A stretch of 36,244 nt of DNA. Origin: a virus. Below the pieces are notes generated by a model, which searched no databases, was not told where the DNA came from, and saw nothing but the letters and a program-made list of their open reading frames with translations. Location: the IMG/VR virus record IMGVR_UViG_3300025133_000326, positions 1-36,244 of that record; one strand, given 5' to 3'. The position numbers and the translations under genes were made by a program. Positions 1,003-34,108 of the stretch are shown in pieces (the first letter of the stretch is position 1; every line of letters starts with the position of its first letter).

Positions 1003-1040
1003 AGAGCCGGACCCATGGTATGGTACCTGGGTCCGGCTCT
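1003..1040 (+). terminator. Perfect 13-bp hairpin between the zinc-ribbon gene and purZ
   Basis: AGAGCCGGACCCA at 1003-1015 pairs perfectly with TGGGTCCGGCTCT at 1028-1040 around a 12-nt loop. The loop contains GGTATGGTACC, which is itself an inverted repeat. Only a weak T-rich tail (TCTGT) follows. It probably ends transcription of the upstream gene. The loop also resembles a degenerate copy of the phage promoter element (CGGTATGGTA), so it may have a double role. Confidence 0.6.
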
Positions 1041-1070
1041 TCTGTATCGCCGGTAATGGAGGACAGCAAA

Positions 1071-2675
1071 GTGAAGATCATCGTTCTATCTGGCGAAATC
1101 GCCAGCGGCAAATCCACCCTCGCGGCCGTTCTTGGCGAGCGGATGAGCATCGCCCACATCAAGAGCAGCACGATCCTACAATCCCGGCTTGCGGGCGGAG
1201 ACGGCACCCGTACGGATCTCGTGGCCATGGGTGATGACCTGGACGCCGATGGGCCGTCCTGGTTGACCGTCCCTGTCATCAAAGCCGCTCTTAACCCGCT
1301 TATCCCGGGTGTTGTGGTTGATTCCTGTCGACGGGTTGAACAGGTCCAGGCGATCCGCCGTTCGGCCTACACGATCGGCGCGCGGGTGTGGCACGTCCAC
1401 CTCACGGCGAGCGAACCGTCACGCGAGTTCCGGCGGCAAACCAGGGGTGACGGACCCGAAAACGGCGGTCTGACCGAGGCCATGGTCGATTCCCTGGGCA
1501 ACATCGCCGACCTCATCATCGACACAGACGCATGCGACCCGGGCGATTGTTCGGTCCGCGTGTCCGCTCTGATCCGCGAACTCAACGTCCAGGCGGAGCC
1601 TTGCGTCGACGTCTACATCGGCGCGCAGTACGGATCCGAAGGCAAGGGGCATGTGATCTCCCAGGTCGCCCACGAGTATGATGCCCTCATCCGTGTCGGC
1701 GGTCCCAACGCTGGACACACGGTCATCCGACCCAACGGTGACAAGTACGCGTTTAAGTCGCTCCCATCCGGCTCGTTCCATGCCCAACGGCATGCAAGGA
1801 TCATCATTGGATCCGGTGCCAACGTCCGGCTGTCGACCCTGCTGTCCGAAATCGAGAAGGTCAACCGACCCAACCACATCCACATCGACCATCGTGTCCG
1901 CATCATCAGCGACGCCGACATGGTTGGTGAAGGCAGGCAGATCGCCGGCATCGGCAGCACCGGTCAGGGAGTCGGTGCGGCGACTGCTTCCCGGATCCTG
2001 GACCGTCACGCCCACGACGACTTTGTCAACGACGAGGTGTACGTCTGCGCTGGCCAAATCCCCGCGCTGCGGCCTTACGTCACCGACACCACTGCAATGA
2101 TCCACGACCTGATCCAGGGCGGCGCATTGATCATGCTGGAGGGAACCCAGGGCACCGGGCTGTCCCTGTACCACGGTCCGTACCCGTACGTGACTTCCCG
2201 GGACACGACTGCCCAGGGTACCATGGCTGAGGCCGGAATCGGACCGAAGCACGTTCGCCGGGTCATTATGGTCGTCCGGGCCAACCCCATTCGGGTACAG
2301 TCGCCGGAGGGTGGATCGTCCGGACCCATGAAGCGTGAACTGTCCTGGGAAGATGTTTCGCTCCGTTCTGGCGTTGATGCCGATGTTCTGCGTGAGCGCG
2401 AACGCACCACGACCACCAAACGGCTCCGCCGGGTGGCCGAGTTCGACTGGGAACTGCTTCACCGTTCAGCGATGCTTAACACGCCCACCGATGTTGCGCT
2501 CACCTTCACCGACTACATCGACCCAGCGAACGCCCGCGCGCACCGGTTCGACCAGCTGTCGTACAGCACGAAGGATTTCATCAACGAGATCGAGCGCGTG
2601 GTCGGATCCCGGGTGAGCTTCGTTGTAACCGGGTTCACGACCAATAGCGTGATCGACCGACGGGAACAGTGGTAG
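1071..2675 (+). CDS. purZ: P-loop nucleotide kinase fused to PurZ (2-amino-deoxyadenylosuccinate synthetase)
   Basis: The 534-residue protein has two domains. Residues 1 to about 175 form a P-loop kinase (Walker A G8-EIASGKS-T16; VVVDSCRR near 80, like the DGxR region of UPF0200/dephospho-CoA-kinase-like kinases). Residues 180-534 form an adenylosuccinate synthetase of about 355 residues, shorter than PurA at about 430. The catalytic loop reads GSEGKG (188-193): the PurA aspartate is Ser189, as in PurZ of Z-genome phages. The histidine of NAGHT (H216) is kept, as are the LEGTQG and YPYVTS motifs. In known PurZ the reaction is dGMP + Asp + ATP to the succino-dZMP intermediate, which host PurB then cleaves to dZMP. 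GTG 1071 is chosen because GGAGGA lies 7 nt upstream; ATG 1056 is an in-frame alternative. The kinase substrate is unknown; dZMP or dGMP is a guess. Confidence 0.88.
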   Translation: MKIIVLSGEIASGKSTLAAVLGERMSIAHIKSSTILQSRLAGGDGTRTDLVAMGDDLDADGPSWLTVPVIKAALNPLIPGVVVDSCRRVEQVQAIRRSAYTIGARVWHVHLTASEPSREFRRQTRGDGPENGGLTEAMVDSLGNIADLIIDTDACDPGDCSVRVSALIRELNVQAEPCVDVYIGAQYGSEGKGHVISQVAHEYDALIRVGGPNAGHTVIRPNGDKYAFKSLPSGSFHAQRHARIIIGSGANVRLSTLLSEIEKVNRPNHIHIDHRVRIISDADMVGEGRQIAGIGSTGQGVGAATASRILDRHAHDDFVNDEVYVCAGQIPALRPYVTDTTAMIHDLIQGGALIMLEGTQGTGLSLYHGPYPYVTSRDTTAQGTMAEAGIGPKHVRRVIMVVRANPIRVQSPEGGSSGPMKRELSWEDVSLRSGVDADVLRERERTTTTKRLRRVAEFDWELLHRSAMLNTPTDVALTFTDYIDPANARAHRFDQLSYSTKDFINEIERVVGSRVSFVVTGFTTNSVIDRREQW

Positions 2676-2676
2676 C

Positions 2677-3381
2677 ATGCGCAAAACACGAGTTTACCTC
2701 GCCGGCCCAGTCACTTCGTCCGGCACCCAGGCATCAAACATGCAGACCGCCATCCGTATCGCCGACGATCTGGCGTCCGTTGGCCTGATCCCGTTCGTGC
2801 CCAACCTGTACTTCTCCTGGGAAGCTCAGTATCCCCGCGATGACCAGGAGTTCTGGATGGGGCAGTGCCTGCAGTGGGTGTCCGCTTGTGACTGCGTGTT
2901 GCGGATCCCGGGCGAATCCGCTGGCGCGGATCGTGAGGTGATGTTCGCAAGTGACAACGGGATCCCCGTGTACCACAGACTGGATGAACTGCTGGTTGCC
3001 ACCCGTGATGGTGTGGTCGGCAAAGCCGGTGGCCAGCCGTTCTTGCGGGAGTTTCAGGCCGAGGTTTCGGCGTGGTTGGACAAGCAGCCGTTCGGCAACC
3101 CGCCCATCGCGCACCATTCCCTCCTGGGCGTCGGCGAAGAGGTCGGCGAACTCATGCACGCCCATTTGAAGGCTGAACAGGGGATCCGGCTCACGCCCGA
3201 GGCCGCGCGAGACAAGAAGGCCGACGCCATCGGGGATATCATGGTGTACCTGTGCGGGTACTGCCGCGCCGAGGGACTCGACATGCACAATGCCTACCTC
3301 CGCGCATGGTCCGAGGTGAAGGAGCGAGACTGGAGCGCGAACCCCATCAACGGTACGGTTCCCGACGATTCCGCCGCCTGA
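2677..3381 (+). CDS. Deoxyribosyltransferase-like (DUF4406) domain fused to MazG/MazZ-like pyrophosphohydrolase
   Basis: The 234-residue protein starts one base after the purZ stop. Residues 1-105 resemble the DUF4406/nucleoside 2-deoxyribosyltransferase fold: an N-terminal VYLAGPVTSSG strand-loop, then GADREVMFA with a probable catalytic Glu87, then GIPVY. Residues about 120-220 look like an all-alpha MazG-type NTP pyrophosphohydrolase with GEEVGEL (E154, E155, E158) and DAIGD (D183, D187) as metal ligands. In Z-genome phages MazZ turns dGTP into dGMP, the PurZ substrate, and the tight coupling with purZ supports that role here. The N-terminal domain could act on a deoxynucleotide glycosidic bond, but no substrate can be read from sequence. 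Domain calls are by motif only. Confidence 0.78.
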   Translation: MRKTRVYLAGPVTSSGTQASNMQTAIRIADDLASVGLIPFVPNLYFSWEAQYPRDDQEFWMGQCLQWVSACDCVLRIPGESAGADREVMFASDNGIPVYHRLDELLVATRDGVVGKAGGQPFLREFQAEVSAWLDKQPFGNPPIAHHSLLGVGEEVGELMHAHLKAEQGIRLTPEAARDKKADAIGDIMVYLCGYCRAEGLDMHNAYLRAWSEVKERDWSANPINGTVPDDSAA

Positions 3382-3416: not shown

Positions 3417-3593
3417 GTGCTACGTTATCACTTGTGCCGGCAAGAACCCGGCAAGCCAGAAACCCGACAGCTATTGATGATGACCGAGGACGAAGGCATG
3501 GCCAGAGAGATCAAGGAGAAGCTTGATCATTATGAAGACCTTGAACCGGATCCTTGTGAAATCTTCCTGATCGACACGAAAGAGAACAACTGA
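3417..3593 (+). CDS. Small acidic protein of unknown function (58 aa)
   Basis: GTG 3417 is chosen because GGAGGACAGC, the ribosome site shared by several genes of this phage, ends right before it. The product is 58 residues, charged, with no membrane segment or signal peptide and no recognised domain. A short Glu/Lys-rich helix is likely around residues 23-42. Its stop overlaps the ATG of the ERF-type annealing gene (TGATG), so the two are probably translationally coupled and expressed together. A role in the recombination or nucleotide module is only suggested by position. Confidence 0.65.
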   Translation: MLRYHLCRQEPGKPETRQLLMMTEDEGMAREIKEKLDHYEDLEPDPCEIFLIDTKENN

Positions 3594-4381
3594 TGGCAAG
3601 CAAGAAACCCACGAACATCAACGAGGCCCTCGCGGCCGCCCAGGGTGAATCGAAGACCCTGGGGATGGATGGGACTGGCGGCAAGGACGGCAGCACGTGG
3701 AAGTACGTGTCTGCGACTGCCACGATCGAGGCCCTCAAGCCGATCCTGGTGAAATACGGGCTCGTCGCCGTCCTGACCGAAACCCACGTTCTGGAAGTGA
3801 TGGGTGGCACCCTCTCGGTGCGCGGTGAGCTTCGGTGGGGATCGGATGACAGCGTCGTGATGCCGCTCCGGTTCGACATGCCGATCGCACCCCCCAACCG
3901 GGGCAAGGCGATCACGCACTCGACCCAGGCGAGTCACACCTCGGCAGTCGCGCGGCTTCTCCGCAACATCCTCTTGGTTAGCGCTTCGGACGATGTGGAA
4001 GTCGACACCGACGAAACGCCGAAGACGAGCGCAAAGCCCGCTGAGGCCGTCACCACCCCCAGAAAGACGAAGAAGGCGAAGAAGAGCAAGGAAAAGCCCA
4101 CGGAGAATGCTCCCGGTGATTTGGCCGCATTCCGGACCATGGCCGAGCAGGTCGGCGTTGAAGTCGATGTGCTCGCGATGTGGGCGACCCGAAAGCCCGG
4201 TGACAATGGCAAGAAGCACGCGGTGATCGGCACCCTCGACTCCATGGTTGAGGGTGGCATGCTCGCCGCTGGTATCCAGCAGATCGGGGAGGATATCGCC
4301 TCCGCCGAGGCCAAAAATGTTTCGTTTCCGCGCTTCAAGAAGATGATCGAAGCCTGGGCCGACGAGCAGATTCCCTACTAA
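3593..4381 (+). CDS. ERF-type single-strand annealing recombinase
   Basis: The 262-residue protein fits the ERF superfamily of phage annealing proteins. The N-terminal 125 residues contain the typical opening (Tyr-Val-Ser near 38, then a helix with ALKPILVKYGL), an antiparallel sheet region (VLEVMGGTLSVRGELRW), and a serine/threonine/alanine-rich helix ending near residue 125 (STQASHTSAVARLLRNI). A Lys/Pro/Thr-rich linker at about 135-170 joins a helical C-terminal domain. Such proteins anneal complementary ssDNA during recombination-dependent replication and terminal-repeat circularisation. The neighbours, a candidate SSB and Hjc-like and DnaQ-like nucleases, form a coherent recombination set. 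Assignment rests on pattern and context. Confidence 0.72.
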   Translation: MASKKPTNINEALAAAQGESKTLGMDGTGGKDGSTWKYVSATATIEALKPILVKYGLVAVLTETHVLEVMGGTLSVRGELRWGSDDSVVMPLRFDMPIAPPNRGKAITHSTQASHTSAVARLLRNILLVSASDDVEVDTDETPKTSAKPAEAVTTPRKTKKAKKSKEKPTENAPGDLAAFRTMAEQVGVEVDVLAMWATRKPGDNGKKHAVIGTLDSMVEGGMLAAGIQQIGEDIASAEAKNVSFPRFKKMIEAWADEQIPY

Positions 4382-5015: not shown

Positions 5016-5552
5016 ATGAGCACTACCGAAGAACTGATTCGAATCGTTCATGAGATCATGTCGGCCGAAGAGGCACTCGATGCTGACGACGACTGGCGGA
5101 GCAAGGTCGACGTGGAGATCGAGATTGAGAGGCTGTATTCCCGCCTCAGCGGTGAAATCGGCCCCCACCTCGATTCGTTGCGCGCGGTGATGAAGCGGGC
5201 AGAATCCGAGGATTTGCTGCTCAAGTGGGAGGCCGAGCAGATCGCGAGGCGGCGACGCGCGGCAAAATCCACCGTCTCCGCGTGTCGTCGCCGGATGACC
5301 GACCTCCTGGTTGCTTACCGTGACAGCGGGCATGACCCGAGAGTCAAGACCGCCGTACATTCGTACTGGCTCCAAAAGTCGACGTCGCTGGAAGCGCCGA
5401 AGGACCCTGCGGATTGGCCGGAAGACTGGGTGCGCATCGAGTACAAGCCCGATCGACGGCGAGCGAGGGAATGCCTTTCCAACGACCCCGAGATCAGCGG
5501 ATGGCCGGATGGGTTCGGCCTGACCGAAAGCGAAGGGGTGAGGTCGCGCTGA
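5016..5552 (+). CDS. Gp157-like helical protein
   Basis: ATG 5016 follows GGGAGCGGAA, giving 178 residues. The protein begins with a long acidic helix (residues 1-60), then a Lys/Arg/Ala-rich helix (about 75-105). This is the layout of the siphovirus Gp157 family, small helical proteins near phage recombination genes. The C-terminal third has aromatic residues and a WPEDW segment. The stop overlaps the next start (TGATG), tying it to the Hjc-like nuclease. The biochemical role of Gp157 proteins is poorly known, and the family match is by overall pattern only. Confidence 0.5.
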   Translation: MSTTEELIRIVHEIMSAEEALDADDDWRSKVDVEIEIERLYSRLSGEIGPHLDSLRAVMKRAESEDLLLKWEAEQIARRRRAAKSTVSACRRRMTDLLVAYRDSGHDPRVKTAVHSYWLQKSTSLEAPKDPADWPEDWVRIEYKPDRRRARECLSNDPEISGWPDGFGLTESEGVRSR

Positions 5553-5899
5553 TGGGGGCAAGGTCCAAACGCAAGGGGTCGGCATTCGAACGGGCGATCG
5601 CCGCCGACATGCAGCACCTCTTCGGCGATGGTGTCCGGCGCGGTATGCAGGACCGGCACATCATCGATGAGTGTGACGTCGAGGGTACGCCGTATTGGTT
5701 GGAGTGTAAGGTGGGCAAGTGCCAAAACCCGCGCGCGGCATTGCGACAGGCGATCGCCGATTCGGCCGGATGCGGCGACGAGAGACAGCCCGTGGCCATC
5801 ATCCGAGACAACAGCACGGGCGGCGGTAAGCCGTCGTTTGACTTTGCTGTCATCCCGTACTCAGTCCTGATGGACTGGATGGAGAAGATGCGTGGTTAA
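5552..5899 (+). CDS. PD-(D/E)XK nuclease, Hjc-like Holliday junction resolvase
   Basis: The 115-residue protein has the Hjc/phage resolvase order: KRKGSAFERAIA at the N-terminus with the first catalytic Glu, RGMQDR, then DVEG...YWLECKVGK giving the D-x(n)-E-x-K core, then a Gln/Ala helix (RAALRQAIAD). Length matches small archaeal and phage resolvases. It would cut branched DNA made by the ERF-type annealing protein and clear replication intermediates before packaging. The start overlaps the upstream stop and its end overlaps the next start at 5892, so these genes are co-translated. A different PD-(D/E)XK specificity, such as a nicking enzyme, cannot be excluded. Confidence 0.72.
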   Translation: MGARSKRKGSAFERAIAADMQHLFGDGVRRGMQDRHIIDECDVEGTPYWLECKVGKCQNPRAALRQAIADSAGCGDERQPVAIIRDNSTGGGKPSFDFAVIPYSVLMDWMEKMRG

Positions 5900-6788
5900 G
5901 AAACTGTCCAGGTTCAAGACGGTCGACCTGCAGGCCGCGCGTCTTACCGCATGCGGTATCACCGGCATCCAAACCCGCGAGTCTGGCAGGCCGACCATCT
6001 TCAAGCGGCTGAAATCCGATACCGCTTTCTTCGGCCGGCTGTACGACAAACATGGCACGATCAACGGCCGATCCCTGTACAAAGGCGAGAGGGAATCACA
6101 GTCGCAGTTCTGGACGCGTTTTGTCGACACCATGTGCACCGAGTTCGAACAGGGACACGTTGGGCCGACCGAAAGGCCACCACTGTTGACCATCGACCTG
6201 GAAGCCACCGGCCTCCCGGGGATGGCAAAAGACCTGCTGAAAATCGTTGAGATTGGTGCTGTCATCACTGATTTTGATGGCAAGATCATGGACGAACTGT
6301 CAGTCATGATCAACCCCGGATTCGACGTGCTCAATCACCAGGACTGCGGACCTGCGTTCAGAGTCACCGGCATTGATCGCGACGAGATCATGCGACGGGG
6401 GATCCCCTACGCCGAGGCCCCCGATCGGCTGCGCTCCTGGATCACCGGGAAGATGGAGTCACGCGGCATCGAGGCGGCGACGTCCTACAATCGATCGTAT
6501 GACTTCGGCGTGTTCCTGAGTCAGGACCCATGGAACATCGAATCCACCGGCATCGGCGAGTACGAATGCCTGATGGAATGGTTCCAACGGCTGCGCTTCG
6601 GCCGGACTGGGCGTCTTCGCGGGTCAAAAGCAACTGACGCGGCCGCATGGTTGGCCGGACGAGGCCACGAGGTGTACACCCCACCGGGTCATCACCGAGC
6701 CCTTTGGGATGCAAGAATGGAGGCCAGCATCGAACGCGGGCTCTCCGTGGAGTCTCGGATGCGTCTCGGCGGCTCTCCGTCGCCCTAG
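5892..6788 (+). CDS. DnaQ-like DEDDh 3'-5' exonuclease with N-terminal extension
   Basis: The 298-residue protein starts at GTG 5892, inside the end of the nuclease gene. The exonuclease domain covers about 97-285 with all motifs: Exo I TIDLEATGL (D102, E104), Exo II YNRSYD (D204), Exo III HHRALWD (H267 or H268, D273). The first 95 residues are an Arg/Lys-rich extension I do not recognise. Such enzymes trim DNA 3' ends. As the only visible proofreading-type nuclease next to a PrimPol-based system, it may act as a separate proofreader, but this is inference. It is the last gene of the left + strand block. Confidence 0.82.
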   Translation: MVKKLSRFKTVDLQAARLTACGITGIQTRESGRPTIFKRLKSDTAFFGRLYDKHGTINGRSLYKGERESQSQFWTRFVDTMCTEFEQGHVGPTERPPLLTIDLEATGLPGMAKDLLKIVEIGAVITDFDGKIMDELSVMINPGFDVLNHQDCGPAFRVTGIDRDEIMRRGIPYAEAPDRLRSWITGKMESRGIEAATSYNRSYDFGVFLSQDPWNIESTGIGEYECLMEWFQRLRFGRTGRLRGSKATDAAAWLAGRGHEVYTPPGHHRALWDARMEASIERGLSVESRMRLGGSPSP

Positions 6789-12600: not shown

Positions 12601-13045
12601 GAGTCTTGAACTGGGATGAGCCCGACCACTCGACCATCAGCAACGCGCGGTCGTGCTCCAACCGGACGATCGGTGACGGCAGCGGCTGGCCACCAGTGCC
12701 ATCGGCCGTCATGCCCTCCCACCCGGTGATTGCCATGAATCCGTCGTGGCCGAGCCACTCGTCGTCGCCATGATCATCCGGGAAGCGCCAGATGAACTCG
12801 CCACCGTCGCGCAACGGGTGACCGGCGTTCTGAGTCAGAATCTCGATCTTCTTCGTCTGATCGCCAGCCGCTTCCAGGACCATGTCGGTCCTTTGGCCAG
12901 CCACCGGAACACCCGCGCGCGGACCGGCTTCCGTGTACGACGAATCATCCGGATTCGGCCCGATCGGGACCAGCGCGTCGATCGTGAACCTGGGGTCCAG
13001 AATGGCCAGACCCTGCGTTCGCGCTGGAATGGAGGACTTGCCCAT
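9680..13045 (-). CDS. Large tail protein with Asp-box (BNR-like) propeller and lectin-like regions
   Basis: This 1121-residue protein is the largest of the phage. Its first half contains three Asp-box-like motifs: YTEDDGLTW near 207, SHDLGLTF near 266 and SIDGGVSW near 383. They mark a probable beta-propeller as in sialidases. A middle part (about 480-690) looks like a lectin/LamG-type jelly roll (IRLLEVGVQTG). The C-terminal 350 residues are Trp- and Tyr-rich. It lies directly after the tape measure (TAATG overlap), where distal tail and receptor-binding proteins are found. It probably binds surface glycan. The catalytic arginine triad of a sialidase is not evident, so enzyme activity is not claimed. 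Confidence 0.65.
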   Translation of the reverse strand: MGKSSIPARTQGLAILDPRFTIDALVPIGPNPDDSSYTEAGPRAGVPVAGQRTDMVLEAAGDQTKKIEILTQNAGHPLRDGGEFIWRFPDDHGDDEWLGHDGFMAITGWEGMTADGTGGQPLPSPIVRLEHDRALLMVEWSGSSQFKTHKYDPDSGAWTVQGTTTLTPAMSAGAANAPHTAMISLPNGRVQLYITDSVNDQKQIHVMYTEDDGLTWAEASRGGLLTPSTDEIQGIAVSHSRGTVAMMLWTNAGAAAVPGSAQQYVSHDLGLTFTTVGDDWFTATSPQERPYHITMVGLDSGKHVMAYWASEAVAGQQKYHVRVFTPGSPAYLETDTTIAVPASGCPLFADFPSCAMWADESGGLFFIAEIDEDGDSRTDLWYSIDGGVSWFPFKTSVFRGRPSGADTRPSDYRVASIGGRAAWTMRWESAHAYSGASAAIAYLGGHTSASMPSVDDGTGDFSDPSWMGFGDELGGTARWGGSFIPINNPNSMGFAVAGAGAGAVDADLLYAVTTTAGQRKFYSISDTASQPSNKAMFAGIQAQCDSGGVLTALEVGFRLRLSDYDTGGVVNATHIHEIEVRMTATQFRVWDVIANVQVGGDQSFDLTEQTWFLVGIKGDGSGSDQGELTIWYGRPDGQIRLLEVGVQTGTLNDDSGANPTNTSRVEFGHDVAGGAATSRWGFMGWGCSAGPTTQRVPSNWLGAWTNPEDLRGRHFPGDFGYLVDDTSIRAVDGPTREGDRWTITPNPDYGVRNMHPTLHESPRLPHRTTEDQVATRYVWDLEKLFTSAYLGNGMLLFGLFGSNVNRATVRGWTGGVPTTIAELEADFGFTGLPHLRKGTTVRPDNSQIAAGGNYLWMQEHADDTFDLGAGETPIHKITHNTGGAWRVDGGAAKVKQPTIYLDPANFKGPEAASGTGDIWSRDFVAITREYAGTFDKISLEIPSHETADGYYQIGTFFWGHIEVFGQQYDLGWIRSKLRNWVRDETDSWLDTFASRSPGRRQVEFAWENTATQLKQEQTNQPDPDYLADGPSGLPVASRNDVVRVMEGILDWNDGPVLPMVYCARIPVRVGGSDAWFKEARRKLFMLCRSETGSRIENLAARSGEGVDEVERLNTVTLEEIV

Positions 13046-15177
13046 TATCGTCTACCGGGGATCGATCGACCGACCTTCGGCCGGATTTTGGATAGCTCGC
13101 GCTGCATCTTACCACTGCGTGAGCGAAGCTGCCTGTGCGAGATCACCTCGGTGGTCCTGGTGCCAATGCGCATGATATTATACGTGGTCCCGCCAGCCGT
13201 TGACTGACCACGATTCGCGGCCTCCAGCCCGGATCTGCCGCCGATCGCCGCCATGCCCTGGTTGCTCAGTACGCCTTCACCGGCCTTTGCGTTGATCGGC
13301 ACAGATTCGCGGCTGGCCACGGTGGATGCGCGGATGAAACCACCACTGTGGAACTGCGGAGGCTTCTGAGTGGCGATCTTCGCGATGGCGATGCCACCGG
13401 CTGCACCGGCCAATGCCGCCAGTGCGATTCCGGCGAAGATCGTGGGTGCCGTCGCCAGTGCGTTGATCACGGCGAGAGCCGTATTGATTGCCGCCGAGAC
13501 AAGAGCCAGGGATTGCTGTGTCTTGAATGCCTCAAGAGCGGCTTCCTTTTGCGCTTTCTCGCGTTCAAGCAGGGTCGCGCGTAGGTTGGTAAGTCTCCCC
13601 TTCTCGGCAGCGTCCGTGGCCTCCGTGAGCCTTTCTTCGATATTCTCGATCGTGGATCTTGTCTCGTCGGCCGCAGCGATTCGATCTTTCATCGTCTGCT
13701 TCGCCATGTCGGCAAAGAGATCAACAATGTCCATTGCCAGTTGAGCGGCCGAGTTGACGATTTCGCCGAATCCAGACTGCCAGAACTCCTTGAACTCCCG
13801 GAATCGATCCTCGATTGTCGTCAAGACCTCATCGAACTCGCCAGCGTCGATCATTGCGTCCAGGATGGACGGTGCCGATGCCAACTCATCGAGCATGTCA
13901 AGGTCGAGGTCACCCAGGGCATCGGCCATTTCGCCGATCTTGCCGGCCGCATCGCCAGCCGCGTCACCCACATCCTTGATTGAGCCCGACCCGCTACTGC
14001 CGAAGCTGGCGGTAACGGCCTTTGCATCATCGATGTACCCCATCACGGTATCGGACCAGTCATCCCACCGGGAATCCGAATCCGAGAGCATGTCCAGATG
14101 CATTTGGACGAACGAGTCTGCGAATCTGGTGAAATCGCGGCCAGAAGCCTCGATCACCATGCGGCCCATTTCGAACTCGCCTTGGAGAATCATCCCCAGT
14201 CCACGGCCGGCATTGGCGGCTGCGTAAGCGCCCAGTGCGTAGACCTTAAGTTCGCCGATCAGATTCTCAAGAAACTCACCAGCAAGACTCAGTGCGGGCA
14301 CGAGGCCACGCGCGATGCCCTCTGCAAACAACAGGGTAGCTTCTTTCGATCCGCTGAATCCTCTCGTCTCGTTGATCACGTCGGTGATGCCGCGCAGAAT
14401 CCCGGTGAATACCGGGATCAGCGGCTCCAAGACTTCACGTTTGAGTGACCCCATGGACTGTTCCATCAGGTCGATTGCGTCGATCAGGTCTTCCGACTTG
14501 CGCGCCGTATCGGCACTGACGACACCGGCCACACGGACAGCCTCGATCGTGGATCGAATGGCATCGCCGCCATCGCCCATCGCGATCGCCATTTCGCGAC
14601 CAGTGCGGCCGAATAGGTCCATGGCGACCTGGGATTTTTCGGCACCATCACGGAGGGTCGGCCATTGGTCGGCGATCATCGCCAACTGTTCATCAATGGA
14701 GAGCCCGATGAGGTCTTCGGCGGATAGACCCAACTTGTCCAATGCTGTAACTGCTTCGCCAGTGCCATCCCGGGCGTCAGACAGATTGCGTCCCAGGTCC
14801 TGCAGCATCCGAGCAGCGTCGACGCCATTCTCGGTCATCATGCCCAGTGCGCGACCGACCAACTCAATATCGGATGCCGAAGCGCCTACCTTCTTGCCGG
14901 CTTTGGCCAATCTGTTTGCGGATTCGGCCAGCGTAACCGTGTTCTTGCTGATGTTCACAGCCAGTTTGGCCGCAGCCTTGCCCACCAGAACAGCAACGCC
15001 AGCGATCGCCGCACCAGCGGCAGCAGCCGCCACGGCAACCGCACCCAACCCACCGGATGCCGCCTCCGAAGCCTCATCGAAGGAACCATCGAGATCGTCT
15101 ACCTTCGAATCTACAGCGCCCAAGGCGGCTTCCAGTGCCCGGGTATCCGCTGTGAACTCGTATTCAACGGTCGGCAT
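13045..15177 (-). CDS. Tail tape measure protein
   Basis: The 710-residue protein has an Ala/Gly-rich hydrophobic segment near 45-70, long helical stretches (SKNTVTLAESANRLAKAG; AADETRSTIENIEERLTEATD), a second Ala-rich hydrophobic segment near 570-615 and a basic C-terminus. The start ATG 15177 overlaps the stop of the frameshifted tail chaperone (TGATG), the classic gene order. An in-frame TTG at 15180 is a worse start. The protein sets tail length and is ejected ahead of the DNA. Scaling with typical siphoviruses would give a tail of roughly 100 nm, an estimate only. Confidence 0.9.
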   Translation of the reverse strand: MPTVEYEFTADTRALEAALGAVDSKVDDLDGSFDEASEAASGGLGAVAVAAAAAGAAIAGVAVLVGKAAAKLAVNISKNTVTLAESANRLAKAGKKVGASASDIELVGRALGMMTENGVDAARMLQDLGRNLSDARDGTGEAVTALDKLGLSAEDLIGLSIDEQLAMIADQWPTLRDGAEKSQVAMDLFGRTGREMAIAMGDGGDAIRSTIEAVRVAGVVSADTARKSEDLIDAIDLMEQSMGSLKREVLEPLIPVFTGILRGITDVINETRGFSGSKEATLLFAEGIARGLVPALSLAGEFLENLIGELKVYALGAYAAANAGRGLGMILQGEFEMGRMVIEASGRDFTRFADSFVQMHLDMLSDSDSRWDDWSDTVMGYIDDAKAVTASFGSSGSGSIKDVGDAAGDAAGKIGEMADALGDLDLDMLDELASAPSILDAMIDAGEFDEVLTTIEDRFREFKEFWQSGFGEIVNSAAQLAMDIVDLFADMAKQTMKDRIAAADETRSTIENIEERLTEATDAAEKGRLTNLRATLLEREKAQKEAALEAFKTQQSLALVSAAINTALAVINALATAPTIFAGIALAALAGAAGGIAIAKIATQKPPQFHSGGFIRASTVASRESVPINAKAGEGVLSNQGMAAIGGRSGLEAANRGQSTAGGTTYNIMRIGTRTTEVISHRQLRSRSGKMQRELSKIRPKVGRSIPGRR

Positions 15178-15991
15178 CAATGCTCCACGAAGAGTGCCCG
15201 AACCTGTTCGTTTAGGTCCTCAGATCGGGCCTCGGGTGGTAACCCAAACTCGTCTGGTTTGGTGTACTTCTTGGGGTACATTTTACCATGTAGGTAGATG
15301 AGGTCACCAGTCTTAACCGGCGACGGCATCATCAGCCGAAGGTCTTCCAGTGATGGGCTGTAGTCCTCGGTGGTGCCATGCGTGTCCGACGGCTTACCAG
15401 AGTGATGGCACAGATGGAACAGTGCCAAAGCGTCGATCTGGAAATCCTCCTTGGCCCGCCACCACGCGCGGATATCACCGCCGAAGTAGGCTAGACCACA
15501 GCAGAGTCGGATGTATCGTTGGTATCCGCTTTCGGTCTGGTAAAACCCAGGCGATTTTGGATCACCTCCTGGGAAGCAAACGACTTGCCGATGAGGTCGA
15601 CCAACTCGCCGAAGATCGCCACGACACTGGACATTTGCCCCAGTCCGACGGAGTCCAACTCATCCAGGACCTCTTCGCCGAAATCCGCCAGGATCGTCGC
15701 ACGGCAATCTTGCCGAGCTTCCAGGGGCATGGTGCGGTCGACCAGCTTGATGGCCTTCCACGGCTGAGGCGTTTCGAGTTCGTACTCGGGGTGGTGCCAG
15801 CACGCGCCGATGATCGCGGCAGCGGGATCTACGGTGTCCATGACCGCGCGTACGGTGCCATCCGTACTGACGTACTCGCCGATGAACTCCAGTAGGATGA
15901 ACTGGCGCTTCTCGTTGGGCAGTCGGAAGGGGATGCCACACACCTCCACAACCCGACCACCGGTCGGAAGAGGCGTTGATCGCTCAATCAT
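15177..15991 (-). CDS. Tail assembly chaperone, long form by -1 frameshift (G-T-like)
   Basis: The short chaperone frame (start 15991) has the slippery heptamer G GGT TTT (complement of 15542-15548) in the right phase. A -1 shift after the TTT codon 150 continues into an open frame to 15177, adding 121 residues that begin YQTESGYQRYIRL and include AYFGGDIRAWW. The joined product is about 271 residues. In the lambda family the long form recruits tape measure and tail-tube subunits and is absent from the virion. The extension has no plausible start of its own at its upstream edge, which supports frameshifting. Confidence 0.82.
15491..15991 (-). CDS. Tail assembly chaperone, short form (G-like)
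   Basis: The 166-residue acidic, helical protein lies directly upstream of the tape measure on the transcript. It is the unshifted product, ending at TAG 15491 after SDSAVV. It opens with a small beta region (GRVVEVCGIPFRLP) and then helices, as is common for phage tail chaperones that recognise the tube protein. Its last 16 codons overlap the extension frame, which is why the short form ends in a low-complexity tail. Function is inferred from gene order and the frameshift site. Confidence 0.78.
   Translation of the reverse strand: MIERSTPLPTGGRVVEVCGIPFRLPNEKRQFILLEFIGEYVSTDGTVRAVMDTVDPAAAIIGACWHHPEYELETPQPWKAIKLVDRTMPLEARQDCRATILADFGEEVLDELDSVGLGQMSSVVAIFGELVDLIGKSFASQEVIQNRLGFTRPKADTNDTSDSAVV
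15542..15548 (-). promoter_or_regulatory. -1 ribosomal frameshift slippery site GGGTTTT
   Basis: Read on the - strand, the zero-frame codons are CTG GGT TTT ACC. GGGTTTT therefore matches X XXY YYZ exactly, with X=G, Y=T, Z=T. Slipping back one base joins the short chaperone to the 121-codon extension. No stimulatory structure was worked out. Confidence 0.8.
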
Positions 15992-25811: not shown

Positions 25812-27274
25812 TTCTCGTCTGCGATCTCCTGGAGAATGTCCAGGAGTTCGACCCGGGCTTGATCCTCGGAAATCCCGGGGTTTAGCCGCATGTACGCCTT
25901 GACCCTGGACACGAGGCCGAGTTTCATTTCCTCGGCGATGTTGCCCAGGATCTCGGTGCGCTCTTCCTCACTCAACTCGACCGATGAATACTCGATCAGG
26001 TACCCGTCCTGGGGGACGGCCGGACCATCGGAGTGAGTGTTCGTGATGATCGCGATCTTCTTGAGCATCAACAGGTCCGACGAGCGGAACAACTGGGCAT
26101 ATTTCGCCTGCAGACGCCGAACCGCCTTGCGGGAGACGGTCAGGGACACCCCTGACGCTGGCGAGGTGACGTCGAAAGTGACGTCCGAGGGTGTGAGGCC
26201 GAAATGAACCGCCAAACGGCAACCGTAGTTACGGGAGAACCTTTCCGCCTTGTCAATGTCGACGGATGCCGACCATGCCCCAACCTTGACCTCGCCATCA
26301 CCGTCTGCCTGGATCCTGGTGATAACCGTAGGATCCGACATGTGCTGCAGGGTCTGGGCGGGCATCCCGTCACCAACGGGTCCCACCGGCTTGCCACCGA
26401 CGATCTTGCCACCGGCCACGTACCGGGCATCCCAAGAAGCGCGCATGAAAGCGTGGTTCGTGTTCGTCCAGTTCAGCCCATCCTGCAGGGTACCGAACAC
26501 AACCTCGGAGTTCTCCGTTGCGGACCAAAGGCCGGTCCTGGGCAACGCGTGGTACGCTGTATACGGGTGCTGCGGCATGCCCCCATTATCGCGGTACTTG
26601 TACGCGGATCCGGACCACTCATCCGGGTCGATTCCGGCGAAGATCGTGAGGTCAGACCGGAGGTTCGATGACAGGACCCGAAAGAACGGCCTTTGGGCCG
26701 ATAGCGACTCCATGAGATTGGGTGCGCGCACAGGTTCTTCCGGCTCACGCATATCCCAGACGTCCCAGACCCATTCGGTGCGCTGCCGACCGTCGATCGT
26801 GATTGGGCGTTCGCGAGCTTCGAAAATGACCCCGAATTGACCGTCATCGGCCGCATCCGGGATCCCCCACACATGATCGGGTGGAACCACTCGGACCTTC
26901 GCATGCCGGGCAGCTTCACTCCAGGCGCATGCCATCACAGAATCATTGATGCCGATCGTGTACAGCTGGTTGCGTTGCGCGAGGAGCCACATCCGCGCAT
27001 TGTCCAGCACACCGACCATGTCCTCAGCCGTCGACCCGTCTTCGCGGGTGATCGCAGGCGCGCGGTCGTACATCACAGCCAAAGCGGATGACAACTGCTT
27101 GAGTTGATTGGACGAAATGTCCGGGATGCCAACCATGGCGGCACGCTTCTCACCCAACTGAGAGCGGAGGTGCTGGCCCAGCAGATCCGACCACGCACCT
27201 TCAAGGATCGCGCGCCGTTTGCCGTGCTCTCGGGCACGCCTCTGCTCGTTGATATCCGGCGGTGTCGGGATCAT
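25721..27274 (-). CDS. Portal protein
   Basis: The 517-residue protein has the size and layout of a siphovirus portal: an N-terminal helical part (RRAREHGKRRAILEGAW), a wing with strands (VWDVWDMREPEEPVRA), a helical stem-like region with DLLMLKKIAI, and a long acidic, low-complexity tail (QPPGDDDESADPEDGAE). It overlaps TerL by 4 bases. As a dodecamer it would form the DNA channel and bind the terminase. The C-terminal 30 codons overlap a + strand gene. Confidence 0.82.
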   Translation of the reverse strand: MIPTPPDINEQRRAREHGKRRAILEGAWSDLLGQHLRSQLGEKRAAMVGIPDISSNQLKQLSSALAVMYDRAPAITREDGSTAEDMVGVLDNARMWLLAQRNQLYTIGINDSVMACAWSEAARHAKVRVVPPDHVWGIPDAADDGQFGVIFEARERPITIDGRQRTEWVWDVWDMREPEEPVRAPNLMESLSAQRPFFRVLSSNLRSDLTIFAGIDPDEWSGSAYKYRDNGGMPQHPYTAYHALPRTGLWSATENSEVVFGTLQDGLNWTNTNHAFMRASWDARYVAGGKIVGGKPVGPVGDGMPAQTLQHMSDPTVITRIQADGDGEVKVGAWSASVDIDKAERFSRNYGCRLAVHFGLTPSDVTFDVTSPASGVSLTVSRKAVRRLQAKYAQLFRSSDLLMLKKIAIITNTHSDGPAVPQDGYLIEYSSVELSEEERTEILGNIAEEMKLGLVSRVKAYMRLNPGISEDQARVELLDILQEIADENQPSREPSPPQPPGDDDESADPEDGAETAE

Positions 27275-28716
27275 TGCGCGAAGTCCAGGTTGTGTTCGAT
27301 CTGCATGATCGCGTACCTATCCCTGTCGATGATGTGCTCATGCGAATCCTCGCGACCCTCCCACATCTTGTAGGCTCGTTGGGTTCGCACGCACCTGGGG
27401 TGGACTCTCCAGTCCCCACGTGCCATCGCTTGATTCAACCGTTTGAGTCCCAGGTCGATCGATCCCGCGCCTTTGCGTGCACGCTGCATCGGAAATGCCG
27501 GTGCCGAAGGATGCAGCCGCATCAAGCGGGCAAAATGTCCCTCGTAGATCACGTTCAGCGATCTGCCAGCCCTGGATTTTCCGGCCGAGTTCACATCACC
27601 GACACTCCAATCAATATCGTCTAGCTTGAGTCCGACCGATTCTATCATAGTCTTAACCTCCATGGCATCCTCTTCGTCAGTCGTCGTCGTCTCGGATACG
27701 TATTCCGCTTCCACCCGAATCTTGATAACAACGCCGTAGTCCTTCATTCTTTGCACCTGGAACAGATACAAGGCCCATGCCGAAGCGCCGGCCTTTTCAC
27801 CGTGATCTACAGCCATCACAACGAGTATGGGCAGGCTGGGATCCCACCCGTCCCCAGGCCGCGTGTCATCGGGCAGAATGAGATCGGGTGTCCATGCGGA
27901 CAGACGCCGATTTTGTGATGTGGATTCCCACCCACCCCGCGCGCGCTGTTCCCATTCCCATTCGGGGATGCCCTTCTTTTGCTCCTCAATGTCCTGGGGT
28001 GTGCGGTGTGGGCAGTTCTCGGCAGTTAGCTCGATGACTGTCTGCGAATGATAGTCCCTCGGCGGCTTCCCAGTGGCTGGGTTGCCCTCAATCGTGGTGC
28101 GCAGCCACGACAGGTCCTGTAGCGGTTTCGCCGGGTCACCGACGGGTGTGAGCGCACCAATGGACGGACCCATCGACATTGACAGCGCGCGCTGCATTTC
28201 ACCCCAGTGTGTGCGCTTCGGTGGCTCGTTCCAGATCATCCAGTCGCCCTTGATGCCAGCTGCCGAGGTGATCCGCTGGAACGACGATCGGAACATCACA
28301 CGGCAACCATCCTTTGTCAGGATCCCACGCTTCTGTCCGATCAGATAGCCCTTTGTCGGATCGTATCGACATGCCTCGGCAAGAATGCCGGGTGGTTCCA
28401 ACTCACGCAGGCACTTACAAACATCATCGGCGTACGAATCCTCAAGATCTGGCACGAAGTAGATGCCAGTGTTAACGCGAGGTATGTTGTCATCACGAAA
28501 CGGATGGGTGCCCGTAAGCCACCACCAGATCTCCGCCGATACCGCATAGGTCTTGCCAACTTTGTTTGCGCATCTGAGCGCGCGCTTTCTCTCGGGATCT
28601 TCGTGGAACACGCGCTGCCCAGGGGACATGCCACCCAAACCCGGTGGCATTCCTTCGTAGACCGCAAGTGGGTTCGACTCCTGGATCTGCAGATACTCAT
28701 CGATCTGTGACCTCAA
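27271..28716 (-). CDS. terL: Terminase large subunit
   Basis: The protein is 481 residues from TTG 28716. Motor domain: Walker A NKVGKT (N51-T56) and Walker B-like WMIWNEP (E164, with Asn where Asp is usual), then a coupling-type STQ-poor region. Nuclease domain: MAVDHGEK (D304), SVGDVNSAGK (D374) and an IIDRDRYAIM end, the RNase H-like acidic residues. The frame stays open upstream for 17 codons to a stop at 28768, and these codons (LETYDEWWYGLDPEL) look coding, so the true start is probably a non-standard codon upstream of 28716. It cuts and packages DNA with the portal. Confidence 0.85.
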   Translation of the reverse strand: MRSQIDEYLQIQESNPLAVYEGMPPGLGGMSPGQRVFHEDPERKRALRCANKVGKTYAVSAEIWWWLTGTHPFRDDNIPRVNTGIYFVPDLEDSYADDVCKCLRELEPPGILAEACRYDPTKGYLIGQKRGILTKDGCRVMFRSSFQRITSAAGIKGDWMIWNEPPKRTHWGEMQRALSMSMGPSIGALTPVGDPAKPLQDLSWLRTTIEGNPATGKPPRDYHSQTVIELTAENCPHRTPQDIEEQKKGIPEWEWEQRARGGWESTSQNRRLSAWTPDLILPDDTRPGDGWDPSLPILVVMAVDHGEKAGASAWALYLFQVQRMKDYGVVIKIRVEAEYVSETTTTDEEDAMEVKTMIESVGLKLDDIDWSVGDVNSAGKSRAGRSLNVIYEGHFARLMRLHPSAPAFPMQRARKGAGSIDLGLKRLNQAMARGDWRVHPRCVRTQRAYKMWEGREDSHEHIIDRDRYAIMQIEHNLDFAQ

Positions 28717-30052: not shown

Positions 30053-30155
30053 GATTCGGCAGTGGTGCCAGCGAATCCCCCGTCCCACCGGGGATCTTAG
30101 CACTGCGGTCTGGTGACAACGAGTCAGGCCATTGCTGTCCCCATCAGGAGCGAAG

Positions 30156-32723
30156 ATGAGTATTCGTGGTGCTGCGCTAAGCTACGCGCGCCGAGGCTGG
30201 CGTGTCATCCCCCTACACGGTATCATCGACGGGGCTTGCACCTGTGCGAAGGACTGTTCCCGGGCTGGCAAACATCCCAGGATCCCGTCATGGCAGATGG
30301 CAGCATCGAACGACCTGGAGACGGTGGCCACGTGGTGGGATCGATGGCCCGATTCCAACGTCGGCATCGCGACCGGACCCGAATCCGGCCTGTTCGTGAT
30401 CGATGTGGACGATCTGTCTGCCCTGGACAATCTGCCCGATATGCCCGAAACGCTCACCTCACGCACAGGGTCGGGCGGGATCCATTTCTTCTTCCTCCAC
30501 CCTGATCACCACATGGGTAACTCCGCCGGGAAGCTTGCGAAGGGTATCGACACGCGGGCGATCAATGGGCAGGTCGTGGCACCTCCCTCGGTGAACATCA
30601 ATGGCGAGTACAAGTGGACTCGTCGGGTTACGCCCGTTGAACTGCCCGTTTGGGTCATGGAACGGCTGTCCGAGAAGAAAGCCAAAGGGAAAGCCCGGGG
30701 GAAGGCTTGGCACCGTCAGTGGGACACACCCACGGGCGATACCTACGGAAGGTCCGCGCTAGAACGGGAATGCGCCTCCGTGGCCAACACAGAGGAAGGG
30801 CAGCGCAACCACGCCTTGAATGCTGCCGCATTCGCCATTGGGCAGCTTGTCGCGGGCGGTGAATTGGATGAGGGTGAAGCCATCGCGGCACTGCGGTCTG
30901 CGGCCGAGGCGGCTGGACTCAAGTCCGGCGAGATCGAAGCGACGATCCAGTCCGGCATGCAGTCAGGCGCAAGCGACCCCAGGACCAAACCGGAGCGCGA
31001 GGAGCGCAAGCCGGCCGAGCCCGATGCCGAACAGCCGAAGTGGACGCGCGGCTGTCCAGTGGACAATCCCGTTGTGCCATCCGGGTGGACCATTTCCAGC
31101 AATGGGGTTTGGGACACCTCGCGCGATCCGGCGAAGCTCGCTTCCCCGCTGCCCGTGATCGTGGGCTCGCGGTTGCGTGACGTCAGCACGGGCATCGAGC
31201 ACGTGATCCTCCACTGGAAGGAGAAGAACGGCTGGCGATCCCACACCATGGAGCGTGAACGGGCAGTCAACTCCCGTAAGATCGTGGATGCCGCCTCCGT
31301 CGGTGTCCCGGTTTCGTCGGTTCACGCGTCCCTGTTGGTCAAATACATCGCCGAGGCTGTGACCGATCCTGATATGCCCATGTCCGAGATTATCACCCAC
31401 CTGGGCTGGTACAAAGACACGTTCATCCTCGGCGACGAGGACTCGGTCCCCAGGTACACACCCCAGGCCGGCCTGGGCGACATGTTGAAGGGATTCACGA
31501 CGGGTGGCACGTTGGCCGGATGGCAGGAAATCATCAAGTCGGTGGCGGCACACCCGCGAGCACTCATCGGGCTATGGGCATCGTTCGCCGCACCTCTCCT
31601 CAAATGGATCCCGGAGGCACCAAATGCGATCATTGATTATTCGGGCCGGACGTCGACTGGGAAAACAACTGCGCTCCGCATTGCGGCATCGGTGTGGGGA
31701 TGCCCCGATGAACGAGCCAACGGAACCATCCACACATGGCAGACCACCCGCGTTGGACTTGAGCGGCTCGCCGCATCACACCGACACCTCCCAGTTTGTC
31801 TCGATGACCACACACGAGCTTATCGTCCCCGGGATATTCCCGGGTTCGTTTACGATTTTTCAATCGGACAGGGCCGAACCCGTGGTCGTGCAGATGGGGG
31901 ACTACAACACCGCGCTACCTATCGCGGAATCCTGATCTCGACCGGCGAAATGCCGCTCGTGTCGAAGTCCCAGGATGCCGGCACCCGTGCCCGGGTCCTC
32001 ACCTGTTGGGGATCGCCCCTGGAGAACGCCACTGGCGATTTCGTTTCGGGCGTGAATCGTGGCCTGCTGTCCCAGTATGGGCATGCCGGCCGCGAGTACA
32101 TCAAGCGGCTGTCGGCGAACACCGAACTGCAGGGGATGATCCGGCCCATGTTCGAAGAGTTCCGTGATGAGTTCGCGCAAGGGGTCAACTCGGAAGTCGG
32201 ACACCGGCTCGCCGGGTCGATGGCCCTCATTGCCCTCGGTGGGTCCGTCTCGGCCACCCTCGGCGTTTCGGTGTTTTCTAGGGGTCACGCGGCCGAAGTG
32301 TGGCGTTCAGTCCTTGGGGAGGGGGAAGAAGGGGCAGACAGACCCCTGTCAGCGTTGGCCCATGTTTACGGCTGGTGTGCCTCGCATTCACGCCGCTTCT
32401 TTGGTGCCCACACCCGCGACGATCCCAACGGTGGTTGGGCCGGTGCCTGGAAGGTCGGCGAGTACATCGGGGTCATGCCCCACATCCTCAACGAGATCCT
32501 CAGTGACGACGATTACGACTCCGATGCGATCGTGCGACAATGGAAGGATTCCGGGTATCTGCGCGGGTCCGAGAACCGGCGCACCCTCCGCATCCGTGGC
32601 CACGGTGGGCAGTTGTGGCGTGTGGTCGCGATCAAGCACAGCGCGTTGGTCGACCTGGGGATCGGTGACACCCAAATCGCGGAATCCAGCATCAAGCCGA
32701 TGGTGGACGTTCGCAGCGTGTGA
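30156..32723 (+). CDS. Primase-polymerase (AEP PrimPol) fused to DUF927-type helicase
   Basis: The protein has 855 residues; AGGAGCG precedes ATG 30156. Residues 1-170 form an archaeo-eukaryotic primase-polymerase domain: IDVD (D83, D85), RTGSGGIH (H110), IDTR (D132, R134) and APPS, with a Cys/His cluster (C28, C30, C34, H40) near the start. A helical linker (about 225-290) resembles PriCT-type regions. Residues 320-800 look like DUF927, with Walker A SGRTSTGKTT near 495. This is the phage's main replication protein and no other DNA polymerase is visible. S-2L, a Z-genome cyanophage, also uses a PrimPol. Whether this protein makes the whole genome or only primers is unknown. Confidence 0.85.
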   Translation: MSIRGAALSYARRGWRVIPLHGIIDGACTCAKDCSRAGKHPRIPSWQMAASNDLETVATWWDRWPDSNVGIATGPESGLFVIDVDDLSALDNLPDMPETLTSRTGSGGIHFFFLHPDHHMGNSAGKLAKGIDTRAINGQVVAPPSVNINGEYKWTRRVTPVELPVWVMERLSEKKAKGKARGKAWHRQWDTPTGDTYGRSALERECASVANTEEGQRNHALNAAAFAIGQLVAGGELDEGEAIAALRSAAEAAGLKSGEIEATIQSGMQSGASDPRTKPEREERKPAEPDAEQPKWTRGCPVDNPVVPSGWTISSNGVWDTSRDPAKLASPLPVIVGSRLRDVSTGIEHVILHWKEKNGWRSHTMERERAVNSRKIVDAASVGVPVSSVHASLLVKYIAEAVTDPDMPMSEIITHLGWYKDTFILGDEDSVPRYTPQAGLGDMLKGFTTGGTLAGWQEIIKSVAAHPRALIGLWASFAAPLLKWIPEAPNAIIDYSGRTSTGKTTALRIAASVWGCPDERANGTIHTWQTTRVGLERLAASHRHLPVCLDDHTRAYRPRDIPGFVYDFSIGQGRTRGRADGGLQHRATYRGILISTGEMPLVSKSQDAGTRARVLTCWGSPLENATGDFVSGVNRGLLSQYGHAGREYIKRLSANTELQGMIRPMFEEFRDEFAQGVNSEVGHRLAGSMALIALGGSVSATLGVSVFSRGHAAEVWRSVLGEGEEGADRPLSALAHVYGWCASHSRRFFGAHTRDDPNGGWAGAWKVGEYIGVMPHILNEILSDDDYDSDAIVRQWKDSGYLRGSENRRTLRIRGHGGQLWRVVAIKHSALVDLGIGDTQIAESSIKPMVDVRSV

Positions 32724-34108
32724 TGGAACTTAGGGCTTACCAAAAGACAGCCGTTACCGCTGTCGTGGGCCGTCACATCGAAGGGTCCCGGGCGGTCTGT
32801 CTCGTTGCTCCAACGGGCGCTGGCAAGACCGTCATGGGATCGGCACTCGCGAAGATGGCCACCAGCAGGGGTGGATCGGTCCTTTGGTTGTGCCATCGGC
32901 GGGAACTGGCATCCCAGGCGATCGATTCGAACAACCGGTATTCAGGCCCCCACACCGCCGGTCCGATCCAGTCCGACTGCCCGATCCGGGTGTCGACCGT
33001 GCAGGCCCTCATGCGCAAGCGCGGCCCCATCCCGGGGATTCGTTTCCTCGTCCTGGACGAATGCCACCATTATCGGGCCGAACAGTGGGGGGCCGTCGCC
33101 CAGATGTACCCCGTTCATACGGTCGGGCTCACGGCAACCCCGCAACGGGCGGATGGACTCGGCCTGGGCTCGATGTTTGATTCGATGGTCGTCTCAGCCT
33201 CGTACACGCAACTGCGCGAGGATGGCCACCTCGCCGACTGCGAAGTCCTACGACCCGATGGTCCGCTCATGTCGAACGAGGTTGCCCAGTCTCCGATCCA
33301 GGCATACTGCAACAACGCGATGGGCAGACACGCTTTCCTCTTCGCAAAGTCGGTGAAGGATGCGGAACAGTTCGCCCGGGATTTCCGGGAGGCTGGTGTG
33401 CGCGCGGCCGTCGTGACCGGGAAGACGGACAAGGAAACGCGGAGGAAGCGTCTGCAGGCATTCGCCGAAGGCACCATCCAGGTCCTGTGCAACGTGTTCG
33501 TCCTTACCGAGGGTGTGGATATCCCGCGAGCGGACGTGTGCATCCTCACCCGTGGCTGCTCCCATGCCTCGATCTATTTGCAGATGGTCGGTCGGATCCT
33601 CCGCCCGTTCCCGGGCAAGGGCAAAGCCCTGCTCATCGATCTCCCTGGTGTCTCCCATGAGCACGGTCTGCCCGGGGAGGACGTTAAATACAGCCTGGAC
33701 GGTGACGGTATCCAGACCGCCGGGAAAGCAAAGAAGAAGGCAGACGACACCATTTCAGGCGACGATCAGAGGCCACCACCGACAATCTACAGCATGGAAC
33801 TGCGGCGGGTGTATGCCGGGTCGGCAACGCCAACCGATCACAAGGATTCGGAATGGCGACGGCTTCGCTCGATCGCAGTCCAGCGCGGATATTCGCTCGC
33901 CTGGGTGGCCAACGAGTACAAGAAGCTGTTCGACCACATCCCACCACAGATCCAGTCGATCGGGTCCCAGGAGCGGCAGCGTGAGTACAGGTCGCTGATC
34001 GGCCTTGCGCGATCACGAGGGTACAAGAACCCACCCGGATGGGCAGGGTACCGGTACAAAGAGACTTTCGGGAAATGGCCACCCAGGTTGTGGTCCTGGA
34101 AGATCTAA
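32723..34108 (+). CDS. SF2 DEAD/DEAH-type helicase
   Basis: The 461-residue protein starts at ATG 32723 overlapping the PrimPol stop. Motifs: Q-like region AYQKTA, Walker A APTGAGKT (K35), DECHH (112-116), TATP (137-140), motif V TEGVDIP (262-268) and motif VI QMVGRILRP (287-295), R291 and R294 being the arginine fingers. The last 120 residues are a basic, Tyr/Trp-rich extension, perhaps a DNA-binding tail. It probably opens DNA or remodels forks with the PrimPol. The ATPase core is clear; the substrate is not. Its last four bases overlap the - strand regulator gene. Confidence 0.85.
   Translation: MELRAYQKTAVTAVVGRHIEGSRAVCLVAPTGAGKTVMGSALAKMATSRGGSVLWLCHRRELASQAIDSNNRYSGPHTAGPIQSDCPIRVSTVQALMRKRGPIPGIRFLVLDECHHYRAEQWGAVAQMYPVHTVGLTATPQRADGLGLGSMFDSMVVSASYTQLREDGHLADCEVLRPDGPLMSNEVAQSPIQAYCNNAMGRHAFLFAKSVKDAEQFARDFREAGVRAAVVTGKTDKETRRKRLQAFAEGTIQVLCNVFVLTEGVDIPRADVCILTRGCSHASIYLQMVGRILRPFPGKGKALLIDLPGVSHEHGLPGEDVKYSLDGDGIQTAGKAKKKADDTISGDDQRPPPTIYSMELRRVYAGSATPTDHKDSEWRRLRSIAVQRGYSLAWVANEYKKLFDHIPPQIQSIGSQERQREYRSLIGLARSRGYKNPPGWAGYRYKETFGKWPPRLWSWKI

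Follow-up and report, generated by a model that had tools for sequence, protein, structure and literature searches.

Why would a phage encode a nucleotide kinase and a PurZ-type synthetase on one polypeptide, and does such a protein mean that the phage DNA contains 2-aminoadenine (Z)? These questions are raised by a gene in a linear, 36,244-bp IMG/VR virus record, which lacks end repeats and is analyzed here over its entire length (hereafter, the window; Table 1). As judged from sequence, the gene product is a real, conserved, bifunctional protein. The more surprising result, absent from an earlier sequence-only reading of this DNA, is a cellular operon built around the same fusion.

A kinase fused to a divergent PurZ

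The open reading frame is free of internal stops. Its GTG start, assigned in the sequence-only reading, is likely correct because it follows a GGAGG element and because a perfect 12-bp inverted repeat (arms 1003-1014 and 1029-1040) sets the gene apart from the preceding one; an alternative in-frame ATG at 1020, which would lengthen the ORF, falls within the loop of this terminator-like hairpin. Searches of the window for RNA families and tRNAs returned none.

Table 1. Features of the window discussed in the text.
Feature	Position	Strand	Basis or remark
Terminator-like hairpin, AGAGCCGGACCC / GGGTCCGGCTCT	1003..1040	+	Read directly from sequence; divides preceding gene from kinase-PurZ gene
Shine-Dalgarno GGAGG	1058..1062	+	8 nt 5' of GTG at 1071
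Kinase-PurZ fusion gene, 534 aa	1071..2675	+	ORF, domain profiles, predicted structure
UPF0200-type nucleoside-monophosphate-kinase domain, aa 1-172	1071..1586	+	Profile and Foldseek
PurZ-type synthetase domain, aa 179-534, Ser189	1605..2672	+	PHROG profile, alignments, tree
NDT-MazG fusion gene	2677..3381	+	PHROG; alignments with L207, L022 and Wayne DmtZ-DutZ
Erf-like single-strand annealing protein	3593..4381	+	PHROG
Tail tape measure protein	13045..15180	-	
Terminase large subunit	27271..28716	-	Identifies the record as a tailed phage
PrimPol-DUF927 primase/polymerase-helicase	30132..32723	+	Sole polymerase-like gene recognized
SF2 helicase	32720..34108	+	

The C-terminal domain matches the Adenylsucc_synt profile (E 1e-53) and, among PHROGs, 2-aminoadenylosuccinate synthetase (E 7e-67). 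Ser189, within GAQYGSEGKG, does occupy the position of the catalytic Asp of PurA, as had been proposed; this column holds Ser in every PurZ row compared and Asp in every PurA row. The PurZ-diagnostic residues Ser23, Ser131, and Thr273 (S-2L numbering here and below) are present; the loop after Val241 is of the PurZ type, with 8 residues vs 2 in PurA; and the dGMP pocket described for S-2L PurZ (PMC8342488) is conserved (G22, N49, A50, T132, Q190, T205, R240, and V241). Arg134 of the synthetase domain aligns with the Arg146 column. At the position where S-2L Gln308 and phiVC8 Asn297 read the adenine of the ATP donor, the window protein has Asp481, and Asp is also found here in PurA and PurZ0; the phosphate donor would therefore probably be GTP rather than ATP.

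Which PurZ is this? PurZ proteins, the window protein among them, are separated from PurA with support of 100/100, and the kinase-PurZ proteins form a separate clade inside PurZ (support 99 in a first tree, 100/99 in a second); the window protein belongs to neither of the described subgroups, PurZ0 and S-2L/phiVC8. An S-2L-type assignment must thus be abandoned, and the GSEGKG motif is not a mark of that type: S-2L and phiVC8-type PurZ carry GSTGKG, while GSEGKG is found in PurZ0-like proteins and in the kinase-PurZ clade. The NCBIfam PurZ model (NF038379) gives 208.9 bits, under its cut-off of 300. The window protein belongs to a divergent PurZ subfamily, and we found no report of biochemistry for any member of the kinase-PurZ clade.

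Could the protein instead be an archaeal-type PurA that acts on IMP to supply AMP and is fused to an adenylate kinase? Its best single PDB sequence match is PurA of Pyrococcus horikoshii, its length is similar to that of archaeal PurA, and its kinase is adenylate-kinase related; but the catalytic Asp that PurA cannot do without is Ser throughout the clade, the tree places the protein within PurZ and away from P. horikoshii PurA, and a full canonical PurA is already present in 12 of the 12 host genomes of cellular versions tested. We consider this identity very improbable.

The N-terminal domain had been read as a complete, UPF0200-like P-loop kinase spanning G8-T16 at its nucleotide-binding motif, and both profile and fold uphold this. 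The P-loop is GEIASGKST; residues 4-128 match AAA_33 (E 5e-6); a profile of the fused family matches two UPF0200 structures, 3LW7 (E 2e-11) and 3H0K (E 3e-11), along the full kinase domain; and D84, R96, and R121 are invariant among the aligned fused proteins. In an AlphaFold model built from seven relatives (pLDDT 79.5, pTM 0.79), the C-terminal part matches PurA/PurZ structures, and a structure search with the N-terminal part finds AMP-bound 3LW7 (TM 0.77 over that chain).

That the kinase is fused ahead of the synthetase, also proposed earlier, is borne out by domain profiles, by the predicted fold, and by recurrence in relatives: the fusion is no assembly artefact because it is found again in IMG/VR contigs (L207, L018/L023, L021, and L022) and, among the best 79 of 397 cellular matches, in nearly every one. 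The IMG/VR relatives are reached only through alignments; a scan of IMG/VR with the whole protein as a single sequence returned zero relatives, and the kinase domain had zero matches among 50,697 phage records.

A probable route to Z nucleotides and a possible Z genome

The next gene, NDT-MazG, begins 1 bp 3' of the kinase-PurZ gene and also encodes two domains: a member of the nucleoside 2-deoxyribosyltransferase (NDT) superfamily (residues 1-105; PHROG E 1e-15), with candidate catalytic residues Y7, D72, and E87, and a MazG-like domain (residues ~125-220; PHROG MazG E 3e-7), with EExxE at 154-158 and D183/D187. A MazG-like domain, a candidate dGTP pyrophosphohydrolase of the kind looked for in Z-genome phages, therefore adjoins purZ in the window. 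The sister phage L207, in which kinase-PurZ is 48% identical to that of the window, has an NDT-MazG gene (44% identical) shortly 3' of it; in L022, NDT-MazG lies 2.6 kb upstream of kinase-PurZ, and a MazZ-like gene follows kinase-PurZ directly. Of 80 loci fetched after an alignment scan with NDT-MazG, just two, the contigs of L207 and L022, contain PurZ. The first match to the NDT half, the Manatee Spring phage (L005), was set aside: it carries NDT and MazG as separate genes, with no PurZ among the genes read. By analogy with DmtZ, DutZ, and DUF5664, the activities of which have been described (PMC12884076), NDT-MazG is a plausible stand-in for the pool enzymes of known Z phages; in a weak alignment, Y7, D72, and E87 are candidate counterparts of its Tyr, Asn/Asp, Glu triad in DmtZ, and an equivalent of DmtZ Asp12 is not seen at the matching place.

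With kinase and PurZ-type synthetase on one polypeptide and an NDT-MazG protein encoded directly after it, a Z-nucleotide pathway is likely, and kinase-PurZ itself is very likely, to judge from its residues and family, a Z-nucleotide-synthesizing enzyme. The PurZ domain would convert dGMP and aspartate to N6-succino-2-amino-dAMP, as its family and active-site residues suggest, and host PurB would free dZMP; this adenylosuccinate lyase step is usually host-supplied. A PurZ0 phage, Streptomyces phage Hiyaa (L006), has a PurB-like adenylosuccinate lyase gene of its own. The N-terminal kinase would most likely phosphorylate the dNMP product, dZMP or its precursor, towards dZTP, the least certain step of the scheme. 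NDT-MazG, if it acts like MazZ, DUF5664, DutZ, and DmtZ, would supply dGMP and clear dATP/dAMP, and Z would probably enter phage DNA through PrimPol. The two bifunctional proteins could between them cover most of the roles of PurZ, MazZ/DutZ, and DmtZ.

Does the phage then have a Z genome, which the sequence-only reading held to be probable from GSEGKG? Part of that claim stands: the PurZ-type synthetase, the UPF0200-like kinase, and the neighboring NDT-MazG all fit a Z-nucleotide pathway. The signature alone, however, is insufficient, and its predictive value is weakened by 397 bacterial and archaeal relatives identified by the motifs of the clade; the same fusion is found in many cellular genomes beside a normal PurA. 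PHROG and six-frame profile searches of the window found no family-A (DpoZ) polymerase, and the same family-A profile has matches in many loci with unfused PurZ as well as in L207, L018, and L021. In L018, a family-A DNA polymerase is fused to a uracil-DNA-glycosylase domain (9118-12108; 996 aa), and related domains adjoin in L005. A weak, four-sequence DatZ profile matched neither the window nor any of 75 loci.

The missing family-A polymerase does not exclude a Z genome, because S-2L is a Z phage in which PrimPol is the sole possible polymerase (PMC8065100); this PrimPol does not discriminate between A and Z and depends on DatZ (PMC8342488; PMC8065100). The PrimPol-DUF927 and helicase genes of the window are reminiscent of S-2L, and part of the phage sequence may be absent from the record. 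We regard a Z genome as plausible here, its chances being slightly above even.

The explanation that we favor, and rate as moderately probable, is that the gene product makes Z deoxynucleotides as a bifunctional enzyme, that Z would be incorporated into the phage DNA, and that NDT-MazG would manage the pool. Against it count the searches of the window that found neither DatZ nor DpoZ, the sub-threshold NCBIfam score, the dAMP-selecting Asp of DmtZ that is not at the matching place, and the residence of most clade members in cellular operons that bear no sign of a Z genome.

The cellular operon and the origin of the fusion

The 397 relatives emerged when 84,980 species genomes were scanned for motifs of the fused clade. 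The best 79 match over nearly their full length; in nearly all of them the ORF is a kinase-PurZ fusion, and a few have a solitary kinase gene besides. They come from Chloroflexota, Verrucomicrobiota, Planctomycetota, Acidobacteriota, Bacteroidota, Pseudomonadota, Actinomycetota, Myxococcota, and archaea, with a patchy distribution: of 149 Pseudomonas species genomes, 6 have kinase-PurZ, and the two forms in which it occurs there are 43% alike. The gene also resides on rhizobial plasmids together with DUF7002, and those relatives in the plasmid collection that bear product names are annotated as adenylosuccinate synthetase. Some genomes hold further copies: the archaeon Gagatemarchaeum has two kinase-PurZ-like genes side by side in opposite directions (L114; G002:C92:70780-73630), and Amycolatopsis has, besides PurA and kinase-PurZ, an extra synthetase match inside a 782-aa open frame (L189; G012:C23:177468). 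Plasmids of Rhizobium leguminosarum (H162-H169) and Sinorhizobium medicae (H159-H161) carry a second, more distant PurZ/PurA-like gene, matched over the synthetase part only; in R. leguminosarum it adjoins a folE GTP cyclohydrolase gene and possibly belongs to another modified-purine pathway.

What surrounds the cellular genes? Among 82 loci (the best 79 of the 397 cellular relatives, L098-L176, and three IMG/VR entries that resemble integrated elements, L019, L020, and L046), a DUF7002 gene is present in 78, almost always directly downstream of kinase-PurZ, and a gene for an M78-peptidase protein of ~460 aa in 59, almost always directly upstream; a solitary kinase paralogue lies nearby in 16, and beyond these the loci have little in common. 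The apparent conservation of antisense ORFs across many loci is a shadow of the coding strand, and these ORFs were disregarded. The upstream protein combines an IrrE/CapP-like peptidase with an ALC1/TARG1-type macrodomain. The DUF7002 model (pLDDT 97) has DarT1 and DarTG as its best, weak PDB matches (Foldseek E 8e-4; sequence E 0.036), which indicates a DarT-like ART fold with putative enzyme activity. We found no description of DUF7002 or of a kinase-PurZ/DUF7002 operon in the open-access papers searched.

At E 1e-15, the operon flanks in 12 genomes matched 71 PADLOC models, among them type I restriction, PifA, and the cyclase and phospholipase of CBASS; 12 arbitrary stretches from 11 of those genomes matched 20 models, mostly generic ATPases and helicases. 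Since the models overlap and the controls are few, this enrichment is an indication, not a statistic. In the cellular operon, the same chemistry would probably serve a defence or toxin system, not a Z genome.

In fused relatives, the kinase domain resembles the corresponding region of PADLOC dCTPase defence proteins (L046, E 3e-11; L020, E 7e-7). Does the kinase, then, act on dZMP at all? It might recycle or supply dGMP/GDP, or sense phage nucleotides, as relatives among the dCTP-deaminase defence proteins may; the second, solitary kinase copies noted above would suit such a role. Yet kinase and PurZ are fused in nearly every member inspected, and the P-loop, Asp84, and Arg121 are conserved, consistent with a shared pathway. 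A separate role for the kinase is doubtful, and it would be compatible with the favored explanation for the PurZ half.

How are the phage and cellular genes related? The window protein groups with that of L207 (99/91), and this branch is sister (99/85) to one that holds every operon member and the remaining fused phages. L021 and L022 are placed among operon members, so gene exchange has continued. The fused clade is surrounded by unfused viral PurZ lineages, so the simplest reading is that the fused gene arose in viruses and was later put to use in cells, although the deeper forks of the tree are unresolved and the direction is tentative. The viral contig L268, which also has a MazG-like gene (12431-12754), encodes a highly divergent fusion (5283-6767; 31% identical), which may be independent; its very long branch excludes it from dating the fusion.

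This topology also bears on an alternative in which the gene serves the phage as an accessory, taken from the cellular operon or aimed at it (in superinfection exclusion or signal neutralizing), and makes a modified nucleotide while the phage genome keeps ordinary adenine. The clade is mainly cellular, the phages L018, L021, L022, and L214 branch inside or beside operon members, and neither DatZ nor DpoZ was found in the window. But the branch of the window and L207 lies outside all operon members; profile searches found neither DUF7002 nor M78-macrodomain genes in the window, and none was found within 10 kb in L207; and the NDT-MazG neighbor common to both fits nucleotide-pool remodeling. We judge an accessory role unlikely and retain the Z-deoxynucleotide explanation for the window phage.

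A broader proposal, offered tentatively and at less than even chances, would unite both settings: a cellular system, undescribed so far and widely transferred, would be built around kinase-PurZ, with an M78-macrodomain protein, DarT-like DUF7002, and optionally a second kinase; it would convert dGMP to a base-modified nucleotide used as an anti-phage immune signal or weapon, and the window phage and L207 would use a sister form, with NDT-MazG, for 2-aminoadenine DNA. In the window phage, a single polypeptide would both make and phosphorylate an alternative DNA base, and a second protein, also of two domains, would serve the nucleotide pool. The cellular relatives show, in addition, that PurZ chemistry, known as a phage trick, is built into a patchy bacterial and archaeal gene cluster beside ART-fold and macrodomain proteins. 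Do 2-aminoadenine nucleotides take part in cellular phage defence?

Comparison with known systems

For the cellular operon only, DarTG (8BAQ, 7YK3) offers a parallel in its pairing of an ART-fold protein with a macrodomain partner; however, the match of DUF7002 to DarT is weak (TM 0.36-0.43), the macrodomain here forms part of an M78-peptidase protein, kinase-PurZ lies between the two genes, and neither is present in the window. The phage protein itself shares with S-2L and phiVC8 PurZ (7ODX, 6FM1) the Ser-for-Asp substitution, the dGMP pocket, the PurZ-type loop, and the phage setting, and S-2L likewise relies on PrimPol; unlike them, it has GSEGKG in place of GSTGKG and Asp in place of Asn/Gln at the donor-base site, belongs to a separate clade, and carries a fused kinase, and DatZ was not found with the weak profile.

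In motif (GSEGKG/GSEAKG) and in Asp at the donor-base site, the window protein resembles PurZ0 of Arthrobacter phage Wayne and Gordonia phage Ghobes (7VF6), which is accompanied by DmtZ, DutZ, and DUF5664; in Wayne, too, an NDT-family partner is fused to an NTP pyrophosphohydrolase. By contrast, PurZ0 belongs to another clade and lacks a fused kinase, the pyrophosphohydrolase of the window is MazG-like rather than dUTPase-like, and DpoZ was not found in the window. The N-terminal domain has the fold and P-loop of UPF0200 and adenylate-kinase-related proteins (SSO1041, 3LW7, 3H0K) and a full-length profile match to them, but those of solved structure are stand-alone proteins without a synthetase. 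In PADLOC dCTPase, a dCTP-deaminase anti-phage protein, a related kinase domain is attached to a nucleotide-converting domain, which is a deaminase there and PurZ here.
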